A stretch of 64,000 nt of DNA from Apostichopus japonicus (lineage: Eukaryota; Echinodermata; Holothuroidea; Aspidochirotida; Stichopodidae), in the NCBI RefSeq assembly GCF_037975245.1, contig NC_092579.1, forward strand, positions 16,826,178 to 16,890,177, written 5' to 3'. Below are positions 14,611-49,184 of this stretch, piece by piece. The notes under the pieces were generated by a model. That model was given only the letters and a program-made list of their open reading frames with translations. It was not told where the DNA came from and did no database searches. The stretch's first letter is position 1; each line of letters opens with the position of its first letter. The position numbers and the translations under genes are program-made.

Positions 14611-16545
14611 TAACTATATAGGGCGCTTCTTATACTGCACCATACAGTCACTAGGTTTAAGAACCGTTTAAATCAGTCCATGATCTTGGGAAATATAGTC
14701 ACCTGATTTCAGGATATGGAGCGGTGCAATTAGGGGGAGAGCATTTCTGAAATGTGGAAACACTGGTTAATTTATTGATCGCACCTGCAAAAAGCCTTGA
14801 TCATGTGTTGCGCATGCGTTACTCCCTTGTAAAACAATGGCAGCAGGTCATTGATGAAATACGACCGTTATGTAACACATTAGCCTAAAAATTCTAAGGC
14901 ACCGTCGAGGGTTACACCATGGTCAAGTATAGTGCAGTGCGGCCAGTGTTGTCTTTGTCATGTGCACGCTTCATGCCATTGATGGTTTGTAGTAGAATGT
15001 ATACACGCAACCCACTATAATAAAATGTGCATACATTCTGTACACTATAATGATGCTGTATACTGTACAGCTTGAGCGCTTGCGATAGAAGGAAATACTA
15101 CAAGGGTGATCCGACGATGTTTTAATAAATCACGGTAGAAAGATACAGCCTATTCTTTATCAATATTTTGTTTTATCTTGAATAACCGAAACTAAACATT
15201 GGATGTAATTTTCAATTGGGAAATGGACCTACATTCTTCATGACAGGTAAATGCAAACTTATATATGCTACTGGAGGTAGCTTTATTAAATAAAAACAAT
15301 AGCTGCATTTAAGTAAAAGTGAAACCGGTGATTTTGTAATTATAAATGATTGTTTGGGAATAGGATATTAAAGAGTTTCTTGTTTTTCAGTCACGAACGT
15401 TCTTTAACAAGTTTCTTAGACTGATCCGACGGTAGGCTATACATTATAGCTATGATAAGGGCTCGATATCTAGAATTTAGTAAATGAACATTTTATACAG
15501 GGTTTGGAAATTCAGTTCCAAGGAAAATGTGCTATGGTGAAAACCTTTCTACTTAATAATATTGTATACCTTGTCTCAAGAATGGACACATGTATAGGGA
15601 ACCCATGCTGAGTTGAACAAAGAAAGCCCTTGATAATAGTTTAAGACCAAAATCATTTGACGTCAACTGGTTCAAAAAATAATAATAATAACTAAGGAAA
15701 TGTAACATTGAAGAGTATCCTACTGCCGTGAGAAGGTGTCATTCTGAGTATAAATGTAATAATTTTTACGGTGAGCTCAAACTACACCAAGGGTCAACAG
15801 TGTCTGCAGAACTCACCTAAACAACTTAGTTTTCAAAATATCTTACAAGGATGATATGACGCATGCTCTGTAACAATGACGTCAACCATTAAACCTCAAT
15901 ACAGCTTTGCATTCTGGTTTAAAGATACTACAAAGGCAATAAAATGATAAACAAGATAATCTAGGCCCTAAGCGCCTTTTGTTCACAACAAATGTTATTA
16001 ACAAACTTTGTCTGCTAAGAAGGAGTATTAAGGCAAAGAATTAGTATCTTATGTTATATATAATTATTCTACATAATCGACCGAACTGCCAACTTGCGAA
16101 CTTTACAAAAATCTATAGAATTGGAATAACGTGGGGAGAATGAAGTCTCATTTCTGTAATGATGATGATAATGACTTATCGGTAATACCTATTGTTTCAT
16201 GAAATATTTTGAATGTGACAGAAAGCATCCCTGTCAGGAAATTCCTTCTACAATAGAATATCAAATATTCTACTCAGAAGTGAAAATGAAACATTGTGAA
16301 ACTTATTTAACCGAAACATTTATCGATAAGTACATAGATTAAGTATAAACACCGTCATATGTAGACCGTTACTGGTTAAGGCTAGTTTGCTTTTACTGAT
16401 TGATTTTGTTGACCTACAACAGCCAAACGTTTTCGACAAATTCTTGAGCCAACATATAATTTCGTTTACCTCTGTATACATAATATACAGTCATTTCTAC
16501 TGGAAGCTCATTGGTCAACCAAACAGCGGTCATTACTGATTTGCA

Positions 16546-19500
16546 ATGGGATACATTGGTATATTCGCTATTGCAAGTACCAGATACGAAATACTAGTCA
16601 TTTTTCTGTCGTCGATTTTACAAATTGGTTCAAACATTGAACTCACGCCTCGAGGAAATCATGGTATTGTATACTGCGTTGGACAAGGTATACAACTGGA
16701 TCACTCAAAGAGTCAATTCAGCTGTGACGTATTTCGCGACTCTTGCGCTGGAGTACAAGAAAAATTATATCTGGAAATTATAAAGATTTCAAGGAAAAAT
16801 TCATCAATTGAAAATGAGCACTTTAAAAATTACCCTGAAACTTGTTCGTACATCTTAGATATTGTACAAAATACAACCTCATTGGCAGAAAATGATAAAA
16901 CTATCATTGCTAATTCTACAGGGATTATAGGATTTAACATTTCTAGTAACAACCTTATCAATATTCCATGTTTCGGCCATGGTTGGTCGGAAGGTTTGAA
17001 ATGGTTGGACTTTTCTTACAACAGAATTAGTCAGTTGGATTCACCGTTGTATTTTGGTAAACCTCCTAATTCATTAAACTACCTCATTTTAAAAGGAAAT
17101 CAAATAAATCAAACACACCCATTTGCTTTTCGTAATCTCACCTCTCTTAAAAAACTTGATGTTAGTGCTAATGCAGATATAGTTGATTGGGCATTTGTTG
17201 AAAACTCAATGAGTTTAAAACTTGTGAATATCAAAGATTCTTGTTCCGGAAGCAGTTTGGTTTGCACTGTAATAAGAATATGACGTTTGTAGTGAACGCA
17301 AACTACAGCGGCTGTTGCACTAGTGATTTTGAATGCAGAAACGTCAATTCCCGTTGCTCTTTTGAATATAATTGGCCTCAATTTGATCTCCCTACTTGTG
17401 CACCAGGTAAGTGGGTTTTATATTCTCACCAAGAACGCAAGAGAAAAGTGTCAAGAAATAAAGTTAAATAATTAATAAAAAGGCTGTATAGTAAGTTTTG
17501 CATAAGTTACATTACAATTCATATATTGCATATTCTCTAATGCCGTGCAATCAAAAAAAAAAAAAACATTAGAATTAATTTTTACTTCCTTTCAGTTTCA
17601 AGCTAGCTAGTGAAGAAACCGTTAATAGTATTTTATGTGAAGGGTATTTTTGCTAGTAAGTTTATCTCAAATTGAGCTCAAATTGTAGATTTCATGGCTA
17701 TACTTTACGTGGAGAGTAATTTATTCGCCATTTTGGCTTCTCACAATCTGAACACTGATTTGCACTGACAGGCTGCTTAGAATGTTAAAATAACTGACTT
17801 CTGGACTCATGAATATGCAACCTGATGATCTCAATATACAACAAAGGCTAGTTCCGGCTTATAGTTTTATCATACATATGCAATTAAGTTTAACATAGTT
17901 AACCTAATTCACCGTATTTCCTAAGTTTCCTTTTTTTTATTTGGAAATAAGCTTAAGTGCACAAGCAAGGTGTTAAAAGTTACCAGGTTTGTTTCCTCTG
18001 CATATTTTCTGAAAATCCTATAATGTTTGAAATTTGGAAACATGACGATCGCTATTTATCAATATAAACTATGTTATAGACTGAGCGCAAAATACCATAT
18101 AATAAACTAAAGTATTTTAACTAATGCCATTGGTTAATTGGCCATGTCGACATGAAAAAATGCATTACCTGAAAGCAAACCGATATCGTGAATATCCTTA
18201 AATCCTTAAATTAATAAATCCTTAAATATATTCTTCATTGTGTCATCAATTTCACCTAGCCATCGGTTTATCATGTCAAAAATCATGTAAAAGTTAAAGC
18301 AGCATTTTGCGTTTTGTCGCCGTTTTCCACTTTTTTGACAAGTCCAAACAGGTGTTTACATATATCAATCACAAAACAGAAAACTAAGATATTAGCCAAG
18401 TTTTTTTTCCATGCCAATAGCGTTAATTGGAGAGTATACTTAAGGACATTTGCATATAATGAGAAAAGTGTCCTCCGACAAATTACACATTTAATATTAA
18501 TCGCATACAGTTCCCCCCCAGTTTATAAATCTTAGTTATTATTTTTCCGCCAACCCACTAGTTTGAATTCAACCAATCAGAGATGCAGGTTAAGTAATAA
18601 GCCGTTGCTAAATATAGATTCAAATCGTCGAGTTGGTAACGTGGTACAACCAACGAGCTTGACTCTAACAGCTCCCTTGTACAGCTTCCATGACAGTCTA
18701 CACAAATGAAGCATGGTTTTGTATAACGTATTGGCCAATGACGTTCGTAGATTTTATATATTCATATCATGGGCGAGGTTTATTAAGATCCCAACGGAAA
18801 ATATCTTCGAGAAAAACAAAGTTGAAAGTTGTAAATTTTTCGACTTTTATGCCACCATTTGAAGTAAGATTTGAATATATAGATCAGCTAGTTATAGGCC
18901 TATATGTCGTTATGGCATCGTGGATTCAGTGAGATTGAGAAAAACCATGGAAAAGGACACAAAATGCTGCTTTAACAAGGAAGAGAAGACTGGGTGGGGT
19001 AGGAGTGTGACATATTACGTACCACCTTACCATCAGCGACGCCGAAATTTTTAACAAGGTGTCATCTTTATCAAATCCTCTATTAAAATGGCATAATTTT
19101 TTGGCAATTTTATTTTACTGTTTTCTATTACGCAGTACCTCCAATGATGTCGCTTAAGATCAACGAAAATACACTTAAACAATCTTACTACTGGGTTCCC
19201 CAGTTTGAACCAATTCTTATAACGTGCTTTGCTTGGGACGCAATGCCGAAGGTGAACCTTTCCTGGGTTACAAATGGTCGAGACAGAATCTATACACAAA
19301 CAAATGTAACAGAAGGTGATACATCAACGTATAATTCAACATCTCTGCTGCATTATATACCAACAGAAGAGAATTCATCCATTTCCTGTTATGGTAATAG
19401 TGTGATATCATCAGAGTATCACGTGGAAGTGTCACTCTATACATATGGTAAGTTAACAGAAATCATAGCATCACATATGAAGTATCAGTACACACGGTTA

Positions 19501-20477
19501 CAGTGTGCACATATTTTTTAAGACCAAGCATAACGTTCAATGGACCTGTGAAAAGATCAGATTAATTGTTATAGACTGGAGGAATAAGTAAACATTTTCA
19601 CAAAATACTTTTCCGAAGACAGGAATATCTCGCCATCATAAATTATGGCAAGTAAACTCCACACGCCAAAATAAGTAGCACATGATGGTACTGAATTTAT
19701 GAAACGTTTTCACGAACATGACGAATGAATGCTTTTGAATTTCGCGGTTGAAATTCGTGGTTGAAATAAGTAAAAACAAAAAAATGTAAAACTAAAGCTC
19801 CTGATATTAAAAAGTTATGTTACTCGCAGAAAATTCCCTCAGATTTTCTCATAATTTACAAGTTTCTTTAATAATTGATAATTAGTTACCTAATGTGTTT
19901 TAATCCTGAAGTTTTCTATTCCTGTTGTTTCAACATGCCCATGATTAGACTCATATCAAGTTTTCCTGAAATTAATCTTCGGATGGAAATATTAGGCGCA
20001 AAGATAGACAACCAAGAACTGTTCAATGGAATCACGTTAGTATAAGTACATATTATAGAGCACATAGTAGTAGGATGATGAAACTGCTTTACACGCATGT
20101 TAGTGTTAATATTGAGTGAACACCTTAATTCTCTTGATTATAATTAGTATACTCTCATTAATTATCGTTTTCCTACTAAACCTGGAAAGTATTATCTATT
20201 CCAGTCCAATTGCTGTGTGACAATTTCATCAGGTGAACAATATTTAAATTAAATTTAAGCTATTATCTTATATATTTCAACTTTAAGCGAGTTCAAATTA
20301 CAGTAAAACATCCAACGATATGTCTGATAAAGGTAATGGGTGCGTAAGTAGTTACCTATGTTACACTTTTGTTAATGAAAAGTCTTTCCAGAACTTTACA
20401 TTACTTTGAATGGTGAAAGAATCGAGAAGGAATATGTGAATTCTGGAGAGTACTTAAATGTCAGTTGCCATGCTGAT
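16546..20477 (+). pseudogene. Broken copy of the LRR-Ig receptor gene (frameshifted and truncated)
   Basis: Exon 1 (16,546-17,406) encodes a signal-like N terminus, an LRR N-cap region and leucine-rich repeats almost identical to the intact copy. At 17,256-17,258 a run of three T stands where the intact copy has four (25,767-25,770). The lost base shifts the frame and gives a stop at 17,281-17,283, just before the cysteine-rich C-cap. The rest of the exon stays readable in the next frame up to a good GTAAGT donor at 17,407. The first Ig exon (19,136-19,447) is intact with both splice sites. The second Ig exon starts after an AG at about 20,391 and is cut at 20,477. No stalk, TM or kinase exon follows before block B. 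It could still yield a short secreted LRR fragment of 245 aa. A sequencing error in the homopolymer would remove the frameshift but not the truncation. Confidence 0.85.
19136..19447 (+). pseudogene. Broken receptor copy, first Ig exon (exon itself intact)
   Basis: 312 nt, phase 1 to 1. Preceded by a T-rich tract and CGCAG, followed by GTAAGT. Encodes one Ig domain with the Cys of LITCFAWD, the core Trp of LSWVTNGR and the second Cys of SISCYGNS. It differs from the intact exon 28,128-28,439 at scattered residues, for example PQFEPIL against PQNELMV. Left of it lies intron 1 (17,407-19,135), in which nothing else was found. Confidence 0.85.
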
Positions 20478-22711: not shown

Positions 22712-23511
22712 CATAGGCTAGCCTTTAGCTATATAGGGTGCTTCTTATACTGCACCATAGGGGAGAGCATTTCTGAAATGTGGAAACATCGGTTAATTTA
22801 TTGATCGCACCTGCAAAAAGCCTTGATCATGTGTTGCGCATGCGTTACTCGCTTGGAAAACAATGGCAGCAGGTCATTGATGAAATACGACGGTTATACA
22901 CCAATATATTAGCCTAAACAATCTAAGACATCTTCGCTGTGACGCCATGGTCAAGTATAGTGCAGTGCTGCCAGTATTGCCTTTGTTATAGCCACGTTCC
23001 AGGCTATTGATGCTTTGTAGTGGAATGCACACACAACTACTATAATAAAATGTGCATAGTGTCTGTACACATAACGGTGCTACCGTACTTGTATGCTTGT
23101 GATAGAAGGAAATACTAGAAGGGTGATCTGAAATGTTAAATAAATCACGATAGAAAGATACAGCCCATTCCTCATCCATATGTTTTGTTTTATGTTGAAT
23201 AACCGAAACTAAACATTGGATGTAATTTTCAATTGGGAAATGAACCTACATTCTTCATGACAGGTAAATGCAAACTTATATATGCTACTGGAGATAGCTT
23301 TATTAATAAAAACAATAGCTGCATTTAAGTAAAAGTGAAACCGGTGATTTTGTAATTATAAATGATTGTTTGGGAATAGGATATTAAAGAGTTTCTTGTT
23401 TATCAGTCACGAACGTTCTTTAACAAGTTGCTTAGACTGATCCGACGGTAGGCTATACATTATAGCTATGATAAGGGCTCGATATCTAGAATTTAGTAAA
23501 TGAACATTATA

Positions 23512-23754
23512 TCCAGGGTTTGGAAACTCAGTTCCAAGGAAAATGCGCTATGGTGAAAACCTTTCTACTTAATATTATTGTATACCTTGTCTTAAGAATG
23601 AGACACATGTATAGGTAACCCATGCTGAGTTGTATACAACTCAGCATGGGTTACCTATACATGTGTCTCATTCTTGAGACAAGGTAGGTAGAACGGTTTT
23701 CACCATAGCGCATTTTCCTTGGAACTGAATTTCCAAACCCTGGATATAATGTTC
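23512..23754. repeat. Large near-perfect palindrome in block B
   Basis: The left arm (23,512-23,634) is followed with no spacer by its own inverted copy (23,635-23,754). The centre reads GAGTTGTATACAACTC. The right arm lacks about 15 bases present in the left one and has a few substitutions. In block A the same place (15,489-15,620) has a single arm, so the inverted copy arose after the duplication. Confidence 0.9.
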
Positions 23755-24982
23755 ACAAAGAAAGCCCTTGATACTAGTTTAAGGCTAAAATCATTTGACG
23801 TCAACTGGGTCAAATGTTAAACGTTGTGACCACCATAGCTAAGGAAAAGTAACATTGACAAGTATCCTACTGCCACGAGAAGGTGTCATTCTGAGTATAA
23901 ATGTTGTCATTTTTGTGAGCTCAAACTACACCAAGGGTCAACAGTGTCTGCAGAACTCACCTAAACAACTTAGTTTTCAAAATATCTTACAAGGATGATA
24001 TGACGCATGCTCTGTAACAATGACGTCATCCATTAAACCTCAATACAGCTTTGCTTCCTGGTTTAAAGATACTACAAAGGCAATAAAATGATAAACAAGA
24101 TGATCTAGGCCCTAAGCGCCTTTTGTTCACAACAAATGTTATTAACAAACTTTGTCTGCTAAGAAGGAGCATAAGGCAAAGAAAAATGAGACGGGAGGAA
24201 AGGAAATGACACCTTTATTGAACCCGCCTATATGTCTTAACTTTTTCGCACAAACAAATTGATAAACTGCTCAGAAATATTGCCAATCAAGAAACAACTT
24301 TCCCATAGTACATAAGCTTAGCAGAGCTTCTGCAGCGCGTTGCTGCTCATGTTTTGAGTGTGACAGACAGTATCTGTGCCAATTAATTCCTTCTATTCAA
24401 TGGCATATTATTTAGGCTACTACTTAAAAATGAAAATGAAACGTTGTGAAACTTTAAACAATTAGTATCTTATGTTATATATAATTATTCTACATAATCG
24501 ACCGAACTGCCAACTTGCGAACTTTACAAAAATCTATAGAATTGGAATAACGTGGGGAGAATGAAGTCTCATTTCTGTAATAATGATGATAATGACTTAT
24601 CGGTAATACCTATTGTTTCATGAAATATTTTGAATGTGACAGAAAGCATCCCTGTCAGGAAATTCCTTCTACAATAGAATATCAAATATTCTACTCAGAA
24701 GTGAAAATGAAACATTGTGAAACTTATTAAACCGAAACATTTATCGATAAGTACCTAGATTAAGTATAAACACCGTCATATGTAGACCGTTACTGGTTAA
24801 GGCTAGTTTGCTTTGAGGTATTGGAATGTCAACATCACAATTTAAAAATAACTTTCCTCATACAAATATCATTGTCTATTTTGAAACTTAGTTATCAGAG
24901 ATCATACTGATTGATTTTGTTGACCTGCAACAGCCAAACGTTTTCGACAAATTCTTGAGCCAACATATAATTTTGTTTACCT

Positions 24983-25056
24983 CTATATATATCATATACA
25001 GTCATTTCTATTGGAAGCTCATTGGTCCACCAAACAGCGGTCATTACTGATTTGCA
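24983..25056 (+). promoter_or_regulatory. Possible core promoter of the intact receptor gene
   Basis: A TATATATAT stretch (24,984-24,992) lies about 70 bp before the start codon, with an inverted CCAAT (ATTGG) at about 25,021. In block A the matching site reads TGTATACATAAT, so the TATA-like run is broken there. Suggestive only: no start-site evidence is available, and TA-rich runs are common in this DNA. Confidence 0.3.
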
Positions 25057-25918
25057 ATGGGATACATTGGTATATTCGCTATTGCAAGTACCAGATACGA
25101 AATACTTGTCATTTTTCTGTCGTCGATTTTACAAATTGGTTCAAACATTGAACTCACGCCTCGAGGAAATCATGGTATTGTATACTGCGTTGGACAAGGT
25201 ATACAACTGGATCACTCAAAGAGTCAATTCAGCTGTGACGTATTTCGTGACTCTTGCGCTGGAGTACAAGAAAAATTATATCTGGAAATTGTAAAGATTT
25301 CAAGGAAGAATTTATCAACTGAAAATAAGCACTTTGAATATTACAATGAAACTTGTTTGTACAGCTTAGATATTTTACAAAATACAACCACATTGGTAGA
25401 AAATGATAAAACTACCATTGCTAATTCTACAGGTATGATAGGATTTAACATATCTAGTAACAACCTTACCAATATTCCATGTTTCGGTCATGATTTGTCG
25501 GAAGGTTTGAAATGGTTGGATTTTTCTTACAACAGGATTAGTCAGTTGACTTCAAAGTTGTATTTTGGTAAACCTCCTAATTCATTAAACTACCTCATTT
25601 TAAAAGGAAATCAAATACATCAAACACACCCATTGGCTTTTCATTATCTCACCTCTCTTAATAAACTTGATGTTAGTGCTAATGCAGATATAGTTGATTG
25701 GGCATTTGTTGAATACTCAACGAGTTTAAAACTTGTGAATATCAAAGATTCTTGTTCCGGAAGCAGTTTTGGTTTGCACTGTACTAAGAATATGACTTTT
25801 GTAGTGAACGCAAACTACAGCAGCTGTTGCAGTAGTGATTTTGAATGCAGAAACGTCAATTCCCGTTGCTCTTTTGAATATAATTGGCCTCGATTTGATC
25901 TCCCTACTTGTGCACCGG
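25057..25918 (+). CDS. Pseudokinase receptor exon 1: signal segment, LRR and C-cap
   Basis: Encodes Met1 to residue 287. A hydrophobic stretch ILVIFLSSILQIG (about 16-28) suits a signal peptide, though 15 residues precede it. Two Cys near 45-65 suggest an LRR N-cap. Leucine-rich repeats are seen in IGFNISSNNLTNIP, LKWLDFSYNRISQL, LNYLILKGNQI and LNKLDVSAN. A Cys cluster (CSGSSFGLHC, CCSSDFEC, CSFEY, TCAPG) forms the C-cap. Many NxS/T sites. Ends in phase 1 before GTAAGT at 25,919. Confidence 0.9.
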
Positions 25919-28900
25919 GTAAGTGGGTTTTATATTCTCACCAAGAACACAAGAGAAAAGTGTCAAGAAATAAAGTTAAATAATTATTAAAAGGCTTTAG
26001 AGTAAGTGAAGTTACGTTACAATTCATATTGCATTTTCTGTAATGCCGTGCAATCAGGAAAAAAAAACACATTAGATTTCATTTCTACTTCCTATCAATT
26101 TCAAGCTAGTGAAGAAACCATTAATAGTACTTTATGTGAAGAGTATTGTTGCTAGTAAGTTTATCTCAAAAGGAGCTAAAAGTGTAAAGATTGCATGGCT
26201 ACTTGACTTAAGTTATAAGCCATTTTGGCTTCTCCCAATCTGAACTCTGATGTGCACTGGCAGGCTGCTTAGAGTGTTAAAATAACTTACTTCTGGACTC
26301 ATGAATGCAACCTGATGATCTCAATATACAACAAAGACTAGTTCGGGCATATAGTTTTATCATACATATGCAAGTTTAACCAAGTTAACCTTATTCACCT
26401 TCTTTCCTAAGTTTCCTTTTTCATTTGGAAATAAGTTTAATCAAGGTGTTAAAAGTTTCCAGGTTTGTTTCCTCCGCAATTCCGCATATTTTCTGAAAAT
26501 CCTATAATGTTTGAAATTTGAAAACATGGCGATCGCTATTGATCAATATAAACTATGTTATAGACTGAGCGCAGAATACCATATATTAAACTAAAGTATT
26601 TTAACCAATGCCATGGGTTAATTGGCCATGTCGACATGAACAAAATGCAGTATCTGAGAGCAAACCGATATCGTGAATATCCTTAAATCCTTAAATTAAT
26701 AAATCCTTAAATATATGCTTCATTGTGTCCTCAATTTCACCTAGCCATCGATTTATCATGTCAAAAATCATGTAAAACTTAAAGCAGCATTTTGCGTTTT
26801 GTCGCCGTTTTCCACTTTTTTGACAAGTCCATCTAGTTTTTTACATATATCAATCACAAAACAGCAAACTAAGATATTAGCCAAGTTTTTTCCCTGCCAA
26901 AAGCGTTAATTGGCGAGTCATTAAGGACATTTGCAGATATAAGAAAAGTGTCCTCCGTGTGTTAAATTACACATTTAATATTAATCGCATACAGTTCCCC
27001 CAACCCACTAGTTTGAATTCAACCAATCAGAGATGTAGGTTTAGTTATGAGCCGTTGCTAAAAATAGATTCAAAAGGAAGCTGCTCACTTCGCCCAACAA
27101 CAATTTCGCCTAACTGCCATTTCGACCAACCTTACCATTTCGCCCAACCTTGTTGGTCATTTCGCCCAACCAGCATGGTCATTTCGCCCAACCAGCATGG
27201 TCATTTCGCCAAACCTTGCTGGTCATTTTGACCAACATTGATTAAATATTATACTTCAATATTGGTCAATTTAATAAGGAAACGTTCGGGAATTGTTAAC
27301 GTTACGGGATACCAACCGAATATTAAGGAAACTTGAAGTCGTGGTTACAGTCGGTAGGATGGATCAGTGTTTTAGGGGTTAGGTTTGATAGGTTTTTATG
27401 TAGACCGATTCCCCTTTGTTTGTATAACAAACGAAGTAATATAACCCCCAAAAAAAATCAAACTGAACTAGTGAAATAGAAAAAGAAAAATATTTCTAAC
27501 TGAATATGAGTAAAAAATATGGTTGGTCGAAATGACCATGCTGGTTGGGCGAAATGACCATGCTGGTTGGGCGAAATGACCATGCTGGTTGGGCGAAATG
27601 ACCATGCTGGTTGGGCGAAATGGCAGTTGGGCAAATGGTTGTTGGGCGAAGTGACCATAAAGCGATTCAAAACGTCGAGTTGGTAACTTGGTACAACGAC
27701 CCTAACAGCTCCCTGGTACAACTGCCATAGACAGTCTATGATGTTCGTAGCCTTTAAATATTCATATCATGGGCGAGGTTTATTTGGATCCCAACGGAAA
27801 ATATCTTCGAGAAAAACAAAGTTGGAAGTTGTAAATTTTTCGACTTTTATGCCACCATTTGAAGTAAGATTTGAATAGATAAGCTAGTTATATGTCGTTA
27901 TGGCATCGTGGATTCAGTTAGGTTGAGAAAAACCATAGAAAAGGATGTAAATTGCTGCTTTAACAAGGAAGAGAAGACGGAGAGGGTGGGGTGGGAGTGA
28001 GACATATTACGTACCACCTTACCATCAGCGACGCCAAAATTTGTAACAAGGTGTCATCTTTGCCAAATCCTCTATTAAAATGGCATAATTTGTTGGCAAT
28101 TTTATCTTACTATTCTCTATTACGCAGTACCTCCAACGATGTCGCTTAAGATCAACGAAATTACACTTAAACAATCTTACTACTGGGTTCCCCAGAATGA
28201 ACTAATGGTTATAACGTGCTTTGCTTGGGACGCAATGCCGAAGGTGAACCTTTCCTGGGTTACAAATGGTCGCGACAGAATCTATACACAACTTAAAGTA
28301 ACAGAAGGTGATGCACCAACGTATAATTCAACATCTCTGCTGAGTTATATACCAACACAAGAGAATTCATCAATTTCCTGTTATGGTAATAGTGTGATAT
28401 CATCAGAGTATCACGTGGAAGTGTCACTCTATACATATGGTAAGTTAACAGACTAAAGTATCATAACACACTTATGATAAAGAAATCATAGCATCACATA
28501 TGAAGTATCAGTACAAACGTTTAGATCACAGCATCATGTATTCAGTGTGCACATATTTGTTAAGACCAAGCATAACATTCAATGGATCTGTGAAAAGATC
28601 AGAATAATTGTTATACACTTGAGGAGTTAGTATATAGTAACGTTTGGATCGTTCTGTTATAAACATTTTCACAAAATACTTTTCCGAAGACCGGAATATC
28701 TCGCTATTCATAAATTATGGCAAATAAACTCCACACGCAAAGATAAGTAGCACATGATGGTACTGAATTTATGAAACGTTTTCACGAACACAACGAATGA
28801 ATGCTTTTGAATTTCGCAGACTATGTATTGCAATATTTTCTTTTATATTGTTTATCTATTTCGTGGGCTCTCAGTAGGTACATGTTGATTCGTGGTTGAA

Positions 28901-31900
28901 ATAAGTAAAAACAGAAAACTGTAAAACTAAAGCTTTTGAAAAGTTTCATTTTAACAAATAATGCATCATGTACTTGTCTTCTCTCTCGGTGGAGTTTTAA
29001 GTTGCTCGCAGAAAATACCCTGTCTATTAGATTTTCTTATAATTTACATGTTTCTTAAATAATTGATAATTAATGTAATAATGTGTTTAATCCTGAAGTA
29101 TTCGTGTTGTTTTAATATGCCCATGATTAGACTCATATCAATTTTTCCTAAAATTAATCTTGAGATGGAAATATTAGCAGCAAAGATAGTAAACAAAACA
29201 CTGTTCAATGGAATCACGTTACTATAAGTACATATTATATAGCACATAGTGGTAGGATGATAAAACTGCTTTACATGCATGTTAGTGTTAACATTGAGTG
29301 AGCACCTTAATTCACTTGATTATAATTAGTATACTCTCATTAATTATCGTTTTCCTACTAAACTGGGGAATTATTATCTATTCCAGTCCAATTGCTGTCT
29401 GACATTTTCATCAAGTGAACACTATTTAAATTAAATTTAAGCTATTATCTTATATATTTCAACTTTAAGCGAGTTCAAATTACAGTAAAACATCCAACGA
29501 TGTGTCTGTTTAAGCTAATGGGTACGTAGGTAGTTACCTATGTTACATTTTTGTTGATGAAAAGTCTTTCCAGAACTTTACATTACTTTGAATGGTGAAA
29601 GAATCGAGAAGGAATATGTGAATTCTGGAGAGAACTTGAATGTCACTTGCCATGCTGATGGAGCAAGACCTGTATCATCGTTATCCTTTAACGACCGCAA
29701 TGAAGTTGTGACTGAATTACCACCGATCACAAATACGTCCACAAGCATCTCGTTCCTTCTGATGAAACGACTGGAACAGGAGAATATTACATGTACGAGT
29801 ACACAACGACGTGAGGATGAATCTGATCTCACGAGATTTGTCACGGTGACAGTTACTGTGCCTGGTAAGGAAAATAAGCCGTCCGCCACATTGTGGTTAC
29901 AGAGATGTCATTCTTAAAGTTGTTACCAACTGGGAGCCTTAAGAAGAGAGTCTGCTTCCATTTCCCCAATTCTGCTTCTTCTTACAGTATATATTTTTAG
30001 CTTTGGATTTTCTTAAGCATACCTTAAGCAGAATTTCAGTTGTCATCTTCATATGTTATAGTCCAAGAAAAAGAAAGCCTCAGAATGAGTGCTAGTAATA
30101 TTCCATATCTATCCGGTTTTCAAGATACACACCTTTAAATATTATGTTAAATCTATGCATTGGATAATGGATAGCTTTAATGTACAGTTCATTCATACTT
30201 AGTAAAGATCCCTAAATCCTATTGGTCCATTCAGGTCAGCTGACCGTGGTTAATCCTGTGAGTAACGCACGGTAAAATTACGGGGCATCACTTTAATAAA
30301 TCTTTGGTTATATGTAACCAAAAATGTTTTGTTTTATGATTTTTCCCCCACACAAATGGTAGTGTATGAATGAACGGGGTTAATCAACGGTCTAGCGTGC
30401 GTTACTCAAATGATTAATGCACTCCGGGTGTTAATGCTATCGCTGGATGCACTCGGGCTCCGCCCTCGTGCATCGCTTGCATTATCCCCCGATCGTGCAT
30501 TAATCCTATGAGTAACGCACGCTAGACCGTTGATTAACCCCTTATTAATACGTTGTTTTATACACTCCAATAACTCAACCAGACTTTCATTTGGATGTTA
30601 TTCAACACCACTTTGCCTTGAACATTTTGTAATATATTGCAAACATGTCATTGAAGACAATCTAAGTCTTTTGTTTTCCAAACGAGTTTTGTTGCATCTG
30701 ATGAATGGCAACATTGGTATGTGTTTTATACTGCATAGCTCGATCACTTTAATTGATGAACCTCAAGGGTGTAAAGGGGAATTTCACAAATGTAGAGGAA
30801 GAAGTGTTACAAGTGTGTGTTACAAGAAGTGTTAGTGAAATACAACCCTATAATAATAGCAGTGTCTACAACATAGCAATGTTAATTATGTCCCTCAAGT
30901 CATCGTTCAATATGGAAAATCCACTTGATGATGACATTTTGAAGAGCACATACCCTTCAATATGTTTCATGTTTTGAGTGTTGTAGTAAAAGAAAATAAT
31001 TTTAAAAAAACGTTTATTGAAACATGTTTTCATTTCTTCTCCCACTGTCTTTCAGAAAAGTCGACCACACAACCAGGTAACTTCAGTTGGATATCATGAG
31101 TGATTTATTCCATAACTTAAAAAATTGGAGTAGGATCGGTGTTCTTATTTTTTACCCGAAGACATAGGAATATACCAAAAGGCAAAAGAGCTCCCAAAAC
31201 ATTTATCAATGATAACCTGTGCATCCTTTAATGTTTTGTATATATTTAGTCCAATCTAACATATTAATGGTTTGTTTATTTGTTGTTTTAATTTGCTGTT
31301 TTGTTGTTGTTATGGGAGATCATTCGATGATCATCTAATCTAATTGTAATTGGGGGTAAAGGGTGTAAAGGGGAATTTCACAAACATAGAGGAAGAAGTG
31401 TTAATAGCAATACAACCCTATAATAATAGCAGTGTCTACAACATATTTATGTTAATTATGTCCCTCAAGTCATCGTTCAATATGGAAAATCCACTTGATG
31501 ATGACATTTTGAAGAGCACATACCCTTCAATATGTTTCATGTTTTGAGTGTTGTAGTAAAAGAAAATAATTTAAAAAAAAAACGTTTATTGAAACATGTT
31601 TTCCTTTCTTCTCCCACTGTCTTTCAGAAAAGCCGACCACACAACCAGGTAACTTCAGGTTTGGATATCATGAGTGATTTATTCCATACCTTAGGAATTT
31701 GAAGTAGGATCGGTGTTCTTAATTTTTACCCGAAGACATAATATACCAAAAGGCAAAAGAGCTCCGAAAACATTTATCAATGATGATCTGTGCATCCTTT
31801 AATGTTTTGTATCTTTTTAGTCCAATATAACATATTAATTATTTGTTTATTTGTTGTTTAATTTGCTGTTTTGTTGTTGTTATGGAAGATCATTCGGTGA

Positions 31901-34551
31901 TCTTCTAATTGTAATAAATTGTGCACAAAAAATTGTTTTAATGAAATCTCTTGAAATTATCTAGCTACCAATCATTTGTCTTCTGCAAAACGTGTTCAAT
32001 TGCATGTCACGAAATATTTCCATTTACTTTCAGATAGCCCAACAAAAGATCCACCATCTTCAGGTTTTCTTTCATTCAGATATTTATGTAATATTAATGC
32101 ATACAATTAATTTAAATTAGCAACAATGATATAGAGGGGATTTTACTGTTATTAAGATTGATTACTGTTACTGTTTTTTTTTATTGTATTTCTTACTTCA
32201 ATTATCACACTTTTGTTGCCTTCATAGTTATTCCGGAAATCACTTTACTATGTGTTAATCTACTTTTGTTTTGGTACAAGAGTAAGCTATGTGAAAATAA
32301 TTTCAGACCTATTTACGCAACAAGTCCATTGTTTTATTCGAGATTGCTAATTGTAACGTGACATGCAGACGTATCAATAGAAAACTTGTGTCAATGCACT
32401 GTTCAGATATTTGGGTATAACTATCTACTTTCGTTTCAGGATTTGATTATCTTCAATGGATCATACCCAGTATTGCTACACTGTTAACTTGTTTCGTGTT
32501 TGTCTGCATCTACAAGATAACCACGAAGATCAGAGGTAAACGAAGTTGTTTAAAATCGAACTGTTATGCTATATCATAAGATAAGCTGTCATAACAAAAC
32601 ACCATGGTTATGTTTACTATCAACTAATGAAGAACACAAATTTGAAGCGGTTTTACGAAATATTCAAAGTGAATAATGATACTTGTTTATTTGCATGTGT
32701 GACATGACATATGTCAATGCTTGCTGTTTATTTCATGGGTCACATGACATGTTTCAATGCTTGTTGTTTATTTACATGTGTAACATGACATGTCTCAATG
32801 CTTGTTATTTGCTTGCATGTGTAAACAAAATATGTCCCAATGCTTGTTATTTGATTGTATGTGTCACATGACACGCTTCAAATGCTTTTTGTTTACTTGC
32901 ATGTGTCACATAACATGTTTCAATGCTTGTTGCTTATTTACGTACTGTGTAACATGACATGTCCCAATGCTTTTTATTTGTTTGCATGTGTCACATGACA
33001 TGTTTCAATGCTTGTTGTTTATTTGCATGTGTAACATGACATGTCCCAATGCGTATTATCTGTTTGCACGTGTAACATGACATGTTTCAATACTTGTTGT
33101 TGATTTGAATGTGTAACATGACATGTTTCAATACTTGTTGTTGATTTGAATGTGTAACATGACATGTTTCAATACTTGTTGTTGATTTGAATGTGTAACA
33201 TGACATGTTTCAATACTTGTTGTTTATTTGCATGTGCAATATGACATGATTCAATACTTGTTGACAGATCCCTTCAAACTCCAATAATTGAAGAATAATT
33301 TCCGTATTGACATTATTAATATATTTTCATTTCCATATGTAGCTTTGATGTCTGTTACATTTTCAACGTAAGTCTTTTGTGTTCGTTTGGATTTTGGATG
33401 ATTGTTAATACATTTGTTAATTGTCGACTTTTCTACATTGACAGACGCGTTGTATTAACATTAATATGATATTCTCGAATCCAATTTGGAATAACTGAAG
33501 TTATTAGTTGGCTATTCATCACTTTGATATTGACAAATTATTTCTATTACAATGGCCAAGGTTGGTCACTTGATTGAATTATAGTTTATGTTATAACGAT
33601 TGCAAATTCATCCTTTCTATAGACATGTACAATGACAAATGGTTCTAAAATCAGGTGGCATGAATACATTGTTGAATTAATGTGCAATTATTAATTAACT
33701 TTTTATTTAGTTAGCAGATTAATTTATCAAATGTTCAACCTGCAAATGATTCTAAGGGGATAGGAGACATACCATACGTTTTAACTGAATTTTCCCCAGC
33801 CAATAACAAAGAGATGTCTGTTATTTATTCAGAGATGCAGATACAACTCATCTGAAACTCAACAGCTTGCCGGCGGATCAATCACGTAAGATAAAGCAGT
33901 TTTTAATCTGTATTAGACATCATATGCAAATCGTTTTCATATTTGATGATATTTCCTTGACTACTATATCTCTGTCTTTACTTTAGTTGCACATTATTCG
34001 TCACAAGTGTATCTCCAAAACAAACAGAAGTAAGTAGACTTAAAAACTTTGGTCAAACGCAATTATGAATTTAGAAAATTCAAAATTGTGGTTCTTTATG
34101 TGGCTGAATTTATAATGCACAAATCTTAATGTCTAATTATTTTCATTATGTTATTGCAAACATAACAATGTCTAACTATACTTGTTATCACAAGACTACT
34201 TGTTACGTTAACGATATTGTTTTCATTACCGAGGTATAACCATAATTGTGTATAATGTAAGCACTTATCCGTATTTCATTTAATTTTTAATATAAATGCG
34301 CAGTTCGTTTCATTAGCTGTCGAGTAGTTGAAACAGCTTCAGATAATTCTAATTACCTTTTTACCGTCTTCTGCAAAATGGAAAACAATTATGAGATATA
34401 CATTCTCACTTTGTTTCTGTATTTCACTTTAGATCAGCTCTTCCAAGCATTCCGAGAGACGAAATCAGTTACAATCATTTTAGCAGCAGTGAAAGCAGTA
34501 AGATTTTACATGAATTCTAATCGAAGGAAAGTGCATAATTTAATGATAATG

Positions 34552-34603
<52 letters not shown>

Positions 34604-37600
34604 GTTATTTGCTTTACGAGCAATATTGGGATCGTCTCATGTATGTTTCCCACTGTAAATAAACGATTCACGTTATTATGATGTACACTATGACAAATAT
34701 ATTTTGGAAAAGTATATTGCTGTTGATACATTTTCACTGACTTCCCTATGAAACCTTCACGTGTTCATCTTACCTATCTGAAAGCTTAACGTATTTTTAT
34801 TGTTTTTACACCTGTATCTGCTGTACAGTATATTACTCTGCAGAAAAGGAAAGCACATCGAAGGACAGAATATTTAGTGAGAATGAGTTCTGTATCTTAT
34901 CGACAATAAAGGTCGGAACAATTTACAATAGATGGATGGGTACTATCAAAACTCCCAACAAATTCGCGGTTCTAACGACAATCGCAGGTTAGTCGCAGCC
35001 TTGATTGCTGGTACGCATGTGTCTCGCGTGTAAACTACAAACTGGTTTTACAAAAGCCTTTCTCTTGTATTGAAGTATTGCAGCTAGGAACGTAAACAAC
35101 GAATTGCGAGGTTTTAATGCATTTCGTTTAATTATGCATAGTCTATTAACTAACAGAGACATGTTCCTTTCTTGCTGAAAGTTTGTGATGTAAAGTGTGA
35201 CACTTGAGATATTCAATAGGCCTATATGAAACACTATTTTTCTGCATTAGAGGGAGTTATGGAGAAACAAATCAATTGGGATGCATTTGTCAAACGCACA
35301 CTTGACCTGCCTACGACGGATCATCTTACGAGAATCGAGGGAATAGCAGTCGAAAAAAGTGAGTTATTCTTTCATCGCGTAGATGTCTACGTTACATCTA
35401 TATACTGGTACAAACGTACCACCTTGATATTGAACTGGACTGGTGTAGGTCTTATACAACACTGTTTAGATCATAAACGCTTTTTAAATTCCCGCGTTTT
35501 AGCTTAACATGAAAACTTATCTGGCTGAAGAAATGTTAAAATCACATCTTACTTGCAGGTTTATTGATATATCAATGATCGTATTTTAGTTATCGCTACA
35601 AGCGATAAAATTGTCGGCTTTACTCTGTAATAAATGATCTCCTGATATGTCTGGCGTTTAGCACAGTATAACGATGCATTTTCAATGACGAATCCCTACC
35701 TGTTAGTTCACAAAGAAATAAATCAACGTAAAATTAAATGCAAGCTTTAGCCAGTAGTGAAGGAAAAACATCGGATTATTCATTGTTTGCATGCAGTTAC
35801 GAATAGGTTTGTCTCCTCTCTGGCTTGTACCTATATAGGCAATGGAAGCATGTGAAATTAACATTCGAACCGCATGGTGTAATATCATCAATCGTGCATC
35901 ACATTAGGTATGTAGTATTTTAATCCTTACAGCCACCCTTTACCTGGTTACTGAACGTACTGTCTGTGAGACATTGAAGAGCCGCCTTACATTTGACCCG
36001 AGTTCACAAAGCAGTACATTTTCAGTTTCGGATGTTATGAAACATGTCGCTGCCATTTTGGAAGGAATAAAATGTTTGCAGTCGTATGGGGTGAGTCGAC
36101 TACACAGTTATGTATCAATAGTAGAGTTGCTTATATATATGTTGTTTTCCAAAAGAAGTTGTATTATTATTCAAATTGTTGCAGTACTACACTGACACTT
36201 GCGTTAGTGTGACAGTTGGTTTGCCGATTTTGTCAACATAACTGAATCAACAACAAGATGCCACACTAAAATTTGAAGAACAAAATCATGAGATTCAATG
36301 AATGAGCCGAATCGCATCATCTTTTGAGAATATAAAATTGTTTTTATGACAACATTTAAGAAGCTCTTTGTGGTTAGATTTAAAGAAGTTTAATAAATCG
36401 CACCCCCGCTCACATCAAACCCCGTTTGTTTAAAACACAATGGCCATTGTCCAAGAATATATCCCGTATTCCACTATTATATTAGTTCATTGTTATAACT
36501 AATTGTTTGTGTTTTATGTTTTGTTCAAAACATATATCTTCCAATTAATTTTAACAGTTTTTACATCCGGGGTTATCAACAAAGAAGATTCTATACACAA
36601 ACGAAGGAATCTGCAAATTATATGATTTCTGCCTCGCTGAAGATGCGCCAAAAGTAGTTATGCTAAAGAAGACACAGGTGATCATCCTTCCAAAACCAAT
36701 TTCGAAATGTTTTCATAGTAACAAACTTTTCAAACTATAGTTTTCATTTTTTAATTCCATCTCATTTATTGAATGTTATGTTATTACATAAAATTTCACC
36801 AAACAGAACGTTTGTGTCCTTATCAAAGTTAATCAATATTTCCGTACAAACTAAAATACTGCAATTGTAGGTAACATCTTTATTAATGAACAAAAGGTGC
36901 CCTTTGACGTAGGTAGAAAGCATTAAACAATTTCATCTTGATTGACTTCTTTGATTATTCATGGTATTTTCTAATTGTTGTAGAAGTATATAAATTAAGT
37001 ATAAAGAAGATAATTACGGATTAATATTACCTTTTCAGTTTTTCTTCAATCGTAGTTACGGCTATAAAACTTTCTTATTTTTGCCAGATGAATACTGTCT
37101 CCTTTAATCAGTTACCTCCAGAATCTTTCTTCCGTAATGAATACACTGCTGAGAGTGATGTATGGTCCACAGCTGTAGTAATATGGGAAATCTTATCGAG
37201 TGGTAAAATAAAGAATACAAAACTATTGGGTTTAATGCATGAGCCCTATCCTAAGCTATTATCGTTTTCATAATACAGTATTGCTATAACATTTGTGTAT
37301 GTAAAGAAGAACAAATATTGGAAAATGAGATTTCTCAGAACAATATATGATTTAGGTGACATAATGAATGGCAATATTAGGAAGTTGTTTAGTTTGTATT
37401 GCCATACTTTCATGACTAATTTTGAGACTACCAATCATGATCATCTGAGAAAGCGACTTACAACATTTAATTCGTTCTATAGAGAGTAAAGTCTATGTTC
37501 CTAATATCTTAATAAGCAGAATAATATAGCTATGGACAAATGTAGTGTATTACTTTAGTACCATGCGTATTACACTATTCCACAAGGTTTTTTCCTTTTT

Positions 37601-38831
37601 GCAAAAGTTTAGGCGTAATATTTTATTTTAAGACATACAAAACCACCAGTTCAAAAGAAGGGACGATTCCCCGAACCAAGAGCATATGTCATATTTTGTC
37701 TTCGATTTTTTTTTTCGAAGGAGAAACTCCGTTTCCTGTGGATGAAGATATACAACCCGGTCAATATGTAAATGCACCGATGTTAAAGTGGCCTCAGAGA
37801 TGCTTTCAGCTAAGGTATCACTTACTTATGTCAATCGTAAATCATTTATTTACAGCGAATTTAATATCAATCATGTGAATTTGCAATAATTCACATACAG
37901 ATACAATATAGCAATGTAATTATATCATTGTTTTGTTCAGTAAAGTCAGTAAAATAGCATTGTCAAGACAAAATAACGACAAATAATCCTGCACCATGGT
38001 CCTACTTTAAAAATATTTAATATTTTTCACATGTGGCAATGACGCGCGATAAGCAAAGTGACACCAACATATACATTTAGTGAAACGTTAATTATCATTT
38101 GGCTAAACCAACAGCTTTTCACAACACCTATGGAGGAAATGGCATATTAATATTTAATAAGTTGATTGGGACTAAAATATGATTTAGAGAACTTAGCTAC
38201 TCGGTAGTGTCTTACACTACAATAGCGGGATGTAAACATAACCATTTAAATTGATACATGTCTTTAGTATAAAACATTCTGAAATTAAAATTAATTACTT
38301 ATTCGATAACTATTTACCATTTCATTCCTAAGATTGATAACCATAAGGTTGATAACCAAGGTAAATATCGTTCTATATTGTCTTTCGACAGAAACTTGGT
38401 ATTATTTGATTGTTGGAGTCAAACATGTTCTCTTAGACCTTCAATTCATTATCTTAAAGAATCATTCAGAGCGGTAAGTACATTGTTAACTAAGTGATGC
38501 ATTGATTACAGAAAATACAGGTACACATAAATACACACAAGGCAATGTTTATTTTAAATGCTACAAAAAAGAATGTATAAGTAAATGCGTGAATTAATTT
38601 CTTGAACAGTAATTTACTTTGTATCTTAGGCATTCGAAAATGACACTTACCACGAGCGATGAGTTTTAATTAAAGACTTTCAGAACTAAGGAGAAACATT
38701 TATTATTAGCACCTAAATGTCCTTTCTTTTTGTGTTCGCAGGTTTTCGAAACTTTAAGAGAAAACAGTTTCTATGAGATACCACGCTCGGGATTATATAT
38801 GCCAATGAGTGGAGTTACTAATTACAGTTAA
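25057..38831 (+). CDS. LRR-Ig-Ig receptor with tyrosine pseudokinase domain, 19 coding exons
   Basis: Exons: 25057-25918, 28128-28439, 29574-29864, 31056-31076, 31628-31648, 32034-32063, 32440-32535, 33343-33367, 33833-33885, 33987-34029, 34433-34497, 34829-34987, 35251-35358, 35933-36090, 36558-36677, 37088-37202, 37721-37814, 38392-38473, 38742-38831. All junctions are GT-AG, phases agree throughout, and the sum is 2,745 nt or 914 aa. Layout: signal-like segment 15-30, LRRs about 125-230, Cys-rich cap to 287, Ig1 288-391, Ig2 392-488, Pro/Thr-rich stalk 489-512, TM about 519-537, juxtamembrane to 620, kinase-like domain about 625-885, tail 886-914. This is the layout of Trk receptors, but orthology is not shown. 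The active site is lost: only one Gly of the P-loop remains, there is no VAIK Lys, HRD is HPG (751-753), the Asn after it is Lys758, and DFG is DFC (771-773). Predicted role: a surface receptor that signals through partners. Exons were joined by eye; the very short ones are the least certain. Confidence 0.85.
27076..27663. mobile_element. Foldback-like element with 21-22-bp subrepeats, 9-bp target duplication
   Basis: The two ends carry inverted arrays of a unit of the form CATTTCGCCCAACCAGCATG, several copies each way, around a unique AT-rich centre. GATTCAAAA flanks both sides (27,067-27,075 and 27,664-27,672), while block A has a single ATTCAAAT at the site (near 18,618). The insertion is therefore younger than the duplication. 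It lies in receptor intron 1. The frames 26,959-27,231 (+) and 27,458-27,721 (minus) arise from the subrepeats. Confidence 0.85.
28128..28439 (+). CDS. Pseudokinase receptor exon 2: first Ig domain
   Basis: 312 nt, phase 1-1, residues about 288-391. Ig signature: Cys in VITCFAWD, core Trp in LSWVTNGR, second Cys in SISCYGN. Acceptor CGCAG, donor GTAAGT. One domain per phase 1-1 exon is the usual arrangement for extracellular Ig domains. Confidence 0.92.
29574..29864 (+). CDS. Pseudokinase receptor exon 3: second Ig domain
   Basis: 291 nt, phase 1-1, residues about 392-488. Cys in LNVTCHADGARP and in NITCTSTQRR; the strand pattern ends RFVTVTVTVPG. The donor is GTAAGG. The first 81 nt match the truncated exon in block A, which stops at GCTGAT. 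Confidence 0.92.
30376..30541. repeat. Foldback/MITE-like hairpin in receptor intron 3
   Basis: The left arm begins GGGGTTAATCAACGG and the right arm ends with its complement at 30,541. The arms also share the CTAGCGTGCGTTACTCA core, and the centre is self-complementary around CTCGGGCTCCGCCCTCG. Almost the whole 166 bp can fold on itself. A piece of the right arm (TTAATCCT-TGAGTAACGCACG) recurs as a direct repeat at about 30,250. No clear target duplication was found. Confidence 0.75.
31056..31076 (+). CDS. Pseudokinase receptor exon 4: 21-nt stalk microexon, copy 1
   Basis: Lies between CCCACTGTCTTTCAG and GTAACTTC. In phase 1 it adds seven residues, EKSTTQP, to the extracellular stalk. It was recognised because a second near-identical copy with conserved splice sites lies 572 bp on. 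Microexon, so confidence is moderate. Confidence 0.6.
31628..31648 (+). CDS. Pseudokinase receptor exon 5: 21-nt stalk microexon, copy 2
   Basis: Same size, phase and splice sites as the 31,056 exon; encodes EKPTTQP. The Ser-to-Pro change is the only protein difference. Whether one, both or neither is used in an mRNA cannot be seen here; all options keep the frame. Confidence 0.6.
32034..32063 (+). CDS. Pseudokinase receptor exon 6: 30-nt stalk exon
   Basis: Follows TTTACTTTCAG and encodes DSPTKDPPSS in phase 1-1. The donor GTTTTC is weak, so this exon may be skipped without frame change. It extends a Pro/Thr/Ser-rich stalk typical before a TM helix. Confidence 0.55.
32440..32535 (+). CDS. 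Pseudokinase receptor exon 7: transmembrane helix
   Basis: 96 nt, phase 1-1, residues about 513-544. Encodes WIIPSIATLLTCFVFVCIY, one clear TM helix, followed by the positive stop-transfer residues KITTKIR. Acceptor TCGTTTCAG, donor GTAAAC. It anchors the receptor as a type I protein. Confidence 0.85.
32670..33270. repeat. Minisatellite of about 41-bp units in receptor intron 7
   Basis: About 14 imperfect units of the type CATGTGTAACATGACATG followed by TTTCAATGCTTGTTGTTTATTTG. The last units before 33,230 are the most alike, suggesting local amplification. The open frame 32,683-32,871 is a by-product. Confidence 0.9.
33343..34497 (+). CDS. Pseudokinase receptor exons 8-11: juxtamembrane segment
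   Basis: Four small exons at 33,343-33,367, 33,833-33,885, 33,987-34,029 and 34,433-34,497 (25, 53, 43 and 65 nt; phases 1-2, 2-1, 1-2, 2-1). Together they encode residues 545-606, a polar intracellular linker that includes HLKLNSLPADQS, AHYSSQVYLQNKQ and SYNHFSSSES. Tyr residues in contexts such as VYLQ and SYNHF could be phosphorylated; YxxQ and YNxF are not classical docking motifs. Donors are all GTAAG; phases interlock only in this order, which supports the set. Confidence 0.7.
34552..34600. repeat. (TA)n microsatellite in a receptor intron
   Basis: About 24 uninterrupted TA units between exons 11 and 12. It gives open frames on both strands that are not genes. Confidence 0.95.
34829..35358 (+). 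CDS. Pseudokinase receptor exons 12-13: N-lobe of the kinase-like domain
   Basis: Exons 34,829-34,987 and 35,251-35,358 (phases 1-1 and 1-1), residues 607-695. The P-loop region reads IKVGTIYNRWMGTI where a kinase has LGxGxFGxVYxGxL: Gly636 and Gly644 remain and the other loop glycines are gone. The beta-3 strand reads FAVLTTI without the ATP-binding Lys. The helix C region (WDAFVKRTLDL) lacks the Glu that pairs with it. Acceptors CTGTACAG and CTGCATTAG, donors GTTAGT and GTGAGT. Confidence 0.8.
35933..36090 (+). CDS. Pseudokinase receptor exon 14: hinge and helices D-E
   Basis: 158 nt, phase 1 to 0, residues 696-748. TLYLVTERTVCETLKSRL matches the hinge and helix D of tyrosine kinases (LYIVTEY---G-L---L). 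VMKHVAAILEGIKCLQSYG matches helix E leading to the catalytic loop. This exon and the next make the kinase fold unmistakable. Confidence 0.85.
36558..36677 (+). CDS. Pseudokinase receptor exon 15: degenerate catalytic loop and DFG site
   Basis: 40 codons, phase 0-0, residues 749-788. FLHPGLSTKKIL aligns with FVHRDLAARNVL: the catalytic Asp is Gly753 and the metal-binding Asn is Lys758. KLYDFCLAEDA aligns with KISDFGLARDA, with Gly replaced by Cys773 while Asp771 stays. Both splice sites are good (TTTTAACAG, GTGATC). Confidence 0.88.
37088..38473 (+). CDS. Pseudokinase receptor exons 16-18: C-lobe
   Basis: Exons 37,088-37,202, 37,721-37,814 and 38,392-38,473 (phases 0-1, 1-2, 2-0), residues 789-885. 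LPPESFFRNEYTAESDVWST matches the P+1 loop and helix F of tyrosine kinases (PPES, SDVWSFG). VVIWEILSSG, then GETPFP, then LFDCWSQTCSLRPS match helices F to H, including the conserved Arg-Pro that closes the C-lobe. So the C-lobe fold seems kept even though catalysis is lost. Confidence 0.85.
38742..38831 (+). CDS. Pseudokinase receptor exon 19: tyrosine-rich C-terminal tail
   Basis: 29 codons plus TAA. The tail VFETLRENSFYEIPRSG carries Tyr896 (YEIP), then Tyr904 in YMPM and Tyr913 two residues from the end. YxxM is the known binding site for the SH2 domains of PI3-kinase p85. The acceptor is TTTGTGTTCGCAG. Confidence 0.85.
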   Translation, partial: VFETLRENSFYEIPRSGLYMPMSGVTNYS

Positions 38832-43890: not shown

Positions 43891-43896
43891 CAATTT

Positions 43897-44523
43897 GAAA
43901 CTGAGGCGGCGAGAGTGCGAGGCGGCGAGAGTGCGAGGCGGCGAGAGTGCGAGGCGGCGAGAGTGCGAGGCGGCGAGAGTGCGAGGCGGCGAGAGTGCGA
44001 GGCGGCGAGAGTGCGAGGCGGCGAGAGTGCGAGGCGGCGAGAGTGCGAGGCGGCGAGAGTGCGAGGCGGCGAGAGTGCGAGGCGGCGAGAGTGCGAGGCG
44101 GCGAGAGTGCGAGGCGGCGAGAGTGCGAGGCGGCGAGAGTGCGAGGCGGCGAGAGTGCGAGGCGGCGAGAGTGCGAGGCGGCGAGAGTGCGAGGCGGCGA
44201 GAGTGCGAGGCGGCGAGAGTGCGAGGCGGCGAGTGCGAGGCGGCGAGGTGGCGAGAGTGCGAGGTGGCGAGAGTGCGAGGTGGCGAGAGGGCGAGGTGGC
44301 GAGAGGGCGAGGTAGGGCGAGGTGGCGAGAGGGCGAGGTGGCGAGAGGGGTGGAGGGCGAGGTGGCGAGAGGGCGAGGTGGCGAGAGGGCGAGGTGGCGA
44401 GAGGGCGAGGTGGCGAGAGGGCGAGGTGGCGAGAGGGCGAGGTGGCGAGAGGGCGAGGTGGCGAGAGGGCGAGGTGGCGAGAGGGCGAGGTGGCGAGGTG
44501 GCGAGAGGGCGAGAGGGCGAGGT
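43897..44523. repeat. GC-rich 16-bp minisatellite, two-part
   Basis: The first half (to about 44,235) is about 21 nearly perfect copies of GAGGCGGCGAGAGTGC. The second half (to 44,523) is a derived 16-mer, GAGGTGGCGAGAGGGC, with a few 8-bp slips. Because 16 is not a multiple of three and the unit lacks stops, five long frames on both strands stay open, giving low-complexity Arg/Gly/Glu or Ser/Pro/Leu/Ala proteins of up to 292 aa. They carry no independent sign of being genes. Confidence 0.95.

Positions 44524-49147: not shown

Positions 49148-49184
<37 letters not shown>

Follow-up and report, generated by a model that had tools for sequence, protein, structure and literature searches.

The 64,000-nucleotide stretch of the Apostichopus japonicus genome analysed here (the window; assembly GCF_037975245.1, contig NC_092579.1, positions 16,826,178 to 16,890,177) carries a gene for a putative single-pass receptor in which leucine-rich repeats (LRRs) and two immunoglobulin (Ig) domains precede a transmembrane (TM) helix and a tyrosine-kinase fold whose catalytic residues have largely been replaced. 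The gene is one member of a large, dispersed family of pseudokinase receptors. Judging from its residues, the kinase domain is predicted to be inactive, and we put at roughly 0.6 the probability that the protein acts as a co-receptor and docking platform.

The exon model was rebuilt from the DNA of the window, which corresponds to C19:16826178-16890177 of the searched genome (671,581,487 bases in 35 contigs). Its start at 25057, its stop at 38831 and its consistent exon phases bear out an earlier, sequence-only reading of this DNA; that reading had counted 19 exons and 914 residues, figures which become 18 exons and 905 residues in the rebuilt model, a single frame on the forward strand. All introns are GT/AG, and their phases are 1-1 from the first Ig exon (Ig1) to the first juxtamembrane exon and mixed thereafter. 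The protein comprises, in order, a signal-like start, the LRR, two Ig domains, a stalk, the TM helix and the tyrosine-kinase fold. The last is still recognisable to Pfam (PK_Tyr_Ser-Thr, 1.2e-28) and also matches kinases in the PDB; C2-set_2 matches Ig domain 1 (1.7e-8), LRR_8 barely passes (3.3e-6; 27.2 bits, where 27 is the cut-off), and the second Ig domain scores under the cut-offs. The exons are as follows.

25057..25918, forward strand: exon 1, with ATG, signal-like segment and LRR domain with cysteine-rich ends (LRR_8; phase 0 to 1, donor GTAAGT)
28128..28439, forward strand: exon 2, Ig domain 1 (C2-set_2 in Pfam; related exon upstream of relatives)
29574..29864, forward strand: exon 3, Ig domain 2 (Ig2; Ig matches below Pfam cut-offs)
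31056..31076, forward strand: exon 4, 21-nt stalk exon, KSTTQP (within a tandem repeat)
31628..31648, forward strand: exon 5, second copy of the 21-nt stalk exon, KPTTQP (within a tandem repeat)
32034..32063, forward strand: exon 6, 30-nt stalk exon (gene model)
32440..32535, forward strand: exon 7, TM helix, assigned by eye (77% identical in the C17 relative)
33835-33885, 33987-34029 and 34433-34497, forward strand: exons 8-10, juxtamembrane region (exon 10 matched in relatives)
34829..34987, forward strand: exon 11 (K1), P-loop altered, no Lys in beta3 (gene model)
35251..35358, forward strand: exon 12 (K2), helix C with its Glu replaced, FVKR (gene model)
35933..36090, forward strand: exon 13 (K3), hinge LYLVTE (gene model)
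36558..36677, forward strand: exon 14 (K4), HPG for HRD, STKK for AARN and DFC for DFG (gene model, family members read)
37088..37202, forward strand: exon 15 (K5), PPESFF, SDVW and helix F (gene model)
37721-37814 and 38392-38473, forward strand: exons 16-17 (K6, K7), end of the C-lobe, CWSQTCSLRPS (gene model)
38742..38831, forward strand: exon 18 (K8), C-terminal tail SFYEIPRSGLYMPMSG and stop (YEIP and Y[MI]PM)

Stalk exons 4 and 5 belong to a tandemly duplicated segment of about 570 bp (30765-31339 and 31359-31909, 89.6% alike), and alternative acceptors are present for the first juxtamembrane exon (33835-33885). AlphaFold2, run on the LRR exon alone, returned a mean predicted local distance difference test score of 32, too low for use. 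Two introns also hold repeats: intron 1 contains inverted repeats at 27082-27657, with units like GGTCATTTCGCCCAACCAGCAT, and the intron after the TM exon contains a tandem array of 41-bp units at 32675-33263.

Within the kinase domain, the position of HRD reads H742-P743-G744, that of AARN reads S746-T747-K748-K749, with the catalytic-loop Asn replaced by Lys, and that of DFG reads D762-F763-C764, with the Asp kept and the Gly lost. The beta3 Lys is gone from its motif site (AVLTT), helix C reads FVKR where its Glu is expected, and the glycine-rich loop is absent. Calling this domain "fully degenerate" was right as to the loss of Lys, Glu, Asp, Asn and the DFG Gly, and slightly strong in view of what is kept, namely the DFG Asp, the hinge, PPE, SDVW and CWS..RPS. 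Exons that might restore HRD and DFG were sought in two ways, and none was found in the window: a six-frame pattern search for an HRD-like motif plus DFG returned nothing, and a homology search with three K4-type exons of other kinase families returned only the gene's own K4 (E 0.16) and one place at chance level (E 0.22).

These changes are not chance: the genome contains such exons, with identical replacements, many times over. A kinase-domain query (128 exon matches, from the 128 of 891 candidates that were scored) and a K4-K5 exon query (150 matches, from the 150 of 515 candidates that were scored) together place the K4 exon at no fewer than 89 sites on 12 contigs; 44 of these are on C12 and 23 on C16, many of them close together. 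After the removal of 12 loci that repeated places already counted, K4 exons were read at 73 of the 89 places, the window gene included, while the other 16 were placed only. The window gene fits the signature FLHPG.STKK...KLYDFC, toward which the sample leans since the queries themselves carried HPG and DFC. Among the 73 exons read, the HRD His is always kept and the Arg always Pro; the catalytic Asp is lost in 72 (Gly in 65, Cys in 6, Ala in 1), the catalytic-loop Asn in all (Lys in 72, Arg in 1), and the DFG Asp is kept in 72, with the DFG Gly changed to Cys in 72 and to Tyr in one. The sole read member with Asp at the HRD position (HPD; C16:45854 kb) still has Lys for the catalytic-loop Asn. 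Synonymous codons vary at the altered sites (His, CAT 44 and CAC 29; Pro, four codons; Cys, TGT 59 and TGC 13). Among the kinase-domain matches listed, canonical kinases reach only 22-26% identity and no intermediate links them to the family. Six exons read as controls, from other expanded kinase families of this genome, retain the catalytic Asp (HGD in four, DRD in two), AARN and DFG. One inactivation appears to have preceded a wide expansion of the family.

Some further kinase loci came to light in these searches. A sub-array at C4:14.93-15.06 Mb (L073, L081, L082, L090, L092, L093) has HPC, not HPG, at the HRD site. A second expanded kinase family is clustered at C17:13.17-13.61, C18:8.70-8.85 and 13.97-14.26, C19:8.83-9.14 and C21:13.30-13.48 Mb; it may be active, because the four exons read from it (L133-L136) keep HGDLAARN and DFG. 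Scattered kinase copies on C4, C9, C14, C19 and C20 (L137, L138) look FES/FER-like, with IDRDLAARNCLVG...DFGMSREE, and several of them carry one stop within the matched stretch.

Selection on the kinase exons was gauged by the ratio of nonsynonymous to synonymous substitution rates (dN/dS). Between the window gene and its five nearest relatives, one of which has a stop in K3, the ratio is 0.27-0.34, with bootstrap upper limits of 0.40-0.51 (248-274 codons), rather than the value near 1 that the sequence-only reading had named as speaking against its own proposal of a selected pseudokinase. On the window gene's own branch it is 0.35 (0.23-0.57), with none of 1000 bootstraps reaching 1, and over the pairs listed among 13 family members it is 0.07-0.46. 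Selection therefore keeps the dead domain, and the proposal of a selected pseudokinase, as opposed to a decaying gene, is sustained.

The ectodomain has a more composite history. Queries with window Ig1 and Ig2 placed at least one Ig1- or Ig2-like exon no more than 15 kb upstream, in the same orientation, at 15 of the 73 K4 loci, the other 58 being without a match to this gene's query, and placed both at seven, the window gene and six relatives. In pairs of the closest group, Ig1/Ig2 dN/dS is 0.18-0.97; the highest value belongs to window Ig1 against the C17 copy, on 10 synonymous changes, and the remaining pairs (0.18-0.84) show no general positive selection. The C17 copy (C17:14.36 Mb) aligns with the window across exons and introns alike, starting some 140 bp ahead of Ig1. 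The LRR exon has 31 matches genome-wide: itself, an upstream tandem copy in the window (two pieces), 12 loci on the same chromosome at C19:29.69-29.75 Mb (L012-L023; 32-38% identity, E no higher than 8e-9) and, elsewhere, 16 LRR matches of lower strength (E 1e-4 to 0.007). No kinase exon was found at the loci of the C19 LRR cluster within 1.5-kb flanks, and four cluster frames (353-546 residues) each have, by eye, a hydrophobic stretch after the LRR. Because the strong matches of the LRR exon are itself, its broken upstream duplicate and the separate LRR genes on C19, the window gene looks like a fusion of an LRR module to an Ig-Ig-TM-pseudokinase receptor; the fusion is seen in this member, the 5' ends of other relatives having been read over a limited distance. 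A pair of open reading frames at L141 (C16:40160.3-40161.4 kb) was considered as the Ig1 region of the C16:40171 relative and ruled out, as the Ig1-Ig2 exons of that relative lie at 40166-40167 kb. The first frame has no Pfam match at E<=0.1 and the second matches C2-set_2; at best, L141 carries additional Ig-like exons further upstream, putatively linked. Positions 42-1130 of L141, upstream of a family member, also contain reading frames that resemble a retroelement polyprotein.

As to function, the LRR and Ig domains would bind a ligand that is extracellular or on a neighbouring cell, and the receptor would pair with an active tyrosine kinase that phosphorylates its tail. YxxM is a binding motif of PI3-kinase p85, and phosphorylated Y895-MPM might accordingly recruit PI3-kinase through the p85 SH2 domain, as in ErbB3. 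The altered pocket (HPG, STKK, DFC) would be retained as a structural or partner-binding surface without productive binding of adenosine triphosphate (ATP). This docking model is suggested because the tail keeps YEIP and Y[MI]PM in all five copies read (the window gene and L129-L132).

Other explanations concern the integrity of the gene itself. That it is a decaying or unexpressed copy which stays open by chance is very improbable: the upstream tandem copy is broken and some relatives have stops, but here 18 exons are open, their splice sites are intact, and the branch dN/dS is 0.35, with no bootstrap reaching 1. Rather unlikely, in our estimation, is that exon 1 is a separate LRR gene and that the receptor is an Ig-Ig-TM-pseudokinase with another, unseen first exon. 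The short reach of the C17 homology before Ig1, the lack of an LRR exon over the region read before Ig1 of that closest relative, and the organisation of LRR relatives as single open frames ending in their own hydrophobic stretch all point that way; the LRR frame here, however, has no hydrophobic stretch after the LRR, its good phase-1 donor fits Ig1 2.2 kb away, and both tandem copies keep the LRR-Ig order.

Granting an intact receptor, it might instead be a decoy or dominant-negative form that captures ligand, or dimerises with active receptors, and so blocks their signal, its tail being no docking site. The loss of catalytic residues, the presence in the same genome of expanded kinase families with those residues intact, and the homologous LRR cluster lacking nearby kinase exons would suit such a role, but a decoy needs neither a conserved kinase fold nor a tyrosine tail, whereas the fold is under selection and the tail motifs are kept, and we think it distinctly unlikely. 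A variable recognition repertoire, immune or allorecognition, with many Ig-type ectodomains on one constant pseudokinase signalling module, is a tentative possibility. The number of places and their crowding, particularly on C12, the LRR fusion seen only in this member, and the dN/dS of 0.97 between window Ig1 and the C17 copy agree with it, and the A. japonicus expanded families are described in PMC5638244 as enriched in signal recognition and immunity; the other Ig1/Ig2 pairs, without general positive selection, speak against it.

Several observations weigh against the docking receptor that we favour. The joining of exon 1 to the remaining exons rests on phase, splice sites and position, and the 8.9 kb preceding Ig1 of the C17 copy, the closest relative, yielded no LRR exon. 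In a small tree the branch of the window gene exceeds all others of its close group, and the gene is therefore somewhat fast-changing. Stop codons in some members (L091 in K4, C16:45005 in K3) mean that part of the family is decaying. The five tails read all come from the closest group, and conservation of their motifs is consequently due in part to shared ancestry. Finally, some kinases without canonical residues are active, and residual or unusual catalysis may persist here.

The upstream tandem copy lies in the window as follows.

14734..20477, forward strand: broken partial tandem copy of 22760-29659, with LRR exon, Ig1 and interrupted Ig2; no kinase exons

A single-base deletion shifts the frame of its LRR exon after 17255, its Ig2 exon breaks off at 20478, and it has no kinase exons inside the window; the inverted repeats of intron 1 are absent from it. 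The dN/dS of the exon pair between it and the window gene is 0.95, which says little about the intact copy since the upstream one is broken. A 359-bp segment of the duplication (16035-16393 and 24456-24814) is 1.1% diverged, as against 4.6-10% in its other non-coding segments, which suggests recent conversion or constraint. Elsewhere in the window, reading frames at 48571-57586 (forward strand) resemble an SLC17-type transporter gene and one at 8820-9224 (reverse strand) resembles a Josephin-domain protein, and tandem arrays occupy 43823-44524 (16-bp units) and 54134-55334 (82-bp units).

PMC5638244 gives "tyrosine-protein kinase receptor" as one of five families expanded in A. japonicus; a passage of PMC13228809 repeats that expansion and cites an FGFR expansion from another group. 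The reported family may include the HPG/DFC genes, there without a pseudokinase label, the word "pseudokinase" occurring 0 times in the main text of PMC5638244. A literature search, with most subscription papers outside its reach, found no description of the A. japonicus expansion as pseudokinases. The present results may correct the reading of that expansion in a species of interest to both aquaculture and regeneration research: should HPG/DFC genes have been included, some of the reported receptors cannot work as ordinary kinases. Because one inactivation appears to predate the expansion and the altered catalytic residues are conserved, the family offers a natural experiment on the kinase fold without catalysis. 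It is conceivable, though we advance it only as a doubtful extension, that this is the largest animal repertoire of pseudokinase receptors known, in which tens of receptors, arrays included, would carry varied ectodomains (Ig sets, and an LRR captured from the LRR-TM cluster) on one conserved dead kinase with a re-invented HPG/DFC active-site signature, a common module for signalling or for binding partners that might function in immune or self recognition.

Among known receptors, Trk (NTRK) has the same order of LRR, Ig, Ig, TM and kinase, the linkage of the LRR exon here coming from the gene model. The sequence-only reading had likened the layout to that of Trk, and the order does match. Kinship to Trk is not supported by the comparisons made, which did not include a tree with Trk sequences: neither the LRR nor the kinase has Trk as its nearest relative (the LRR being homologous to the C19 LRR cluster), the kinase is predicted to be inactive, and the vicinity of the closest relative gave no LRR exon. 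Trk-specific Pfam models exist, and none is among the eight families listed at E<=1; likewise the best 60 PDB rows of either search are EGFR, Eph and FGFR chains and include neither Trk nor ROR nor MuSK. The FGFR family shares the Ig-TM-kinase arrangement, and FGFR1-3 are the best single-domain PDB matches, this only with the family profile, since EphA3 and FGFR1 score alike in the single-sequence search; it differs in that catalytic residues are lost here and that the Ig here is C2-type. ErbB3 (HER3), a pseudokinase receptor with a YxxM tail, resembles the window gene in crossing the membrane once, in its dead kinase domain and in a YxxM-type tail motif. Its ectodomain is different, and it keeps the beta3 Lys and binds ATP, whereas the window gene has lost the Lys together with the catalytic Asp and Asn. 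A receptor pseudokinase is typically a single gene of ancient origin; PTK7/CCK4, RYK, ROR and EphB6, with one or few genes per genome as a rule, share with the window gene a selected, inactive receptor tyrosine kinase domain, and a passage in PMC8662651 counts CCK4 among the pseudokinases. They differ from it in their ectodomains, and the A. japonicus gene stands apart from them as part of a family that is large, dispersed and marked by one altered motif common to its members.

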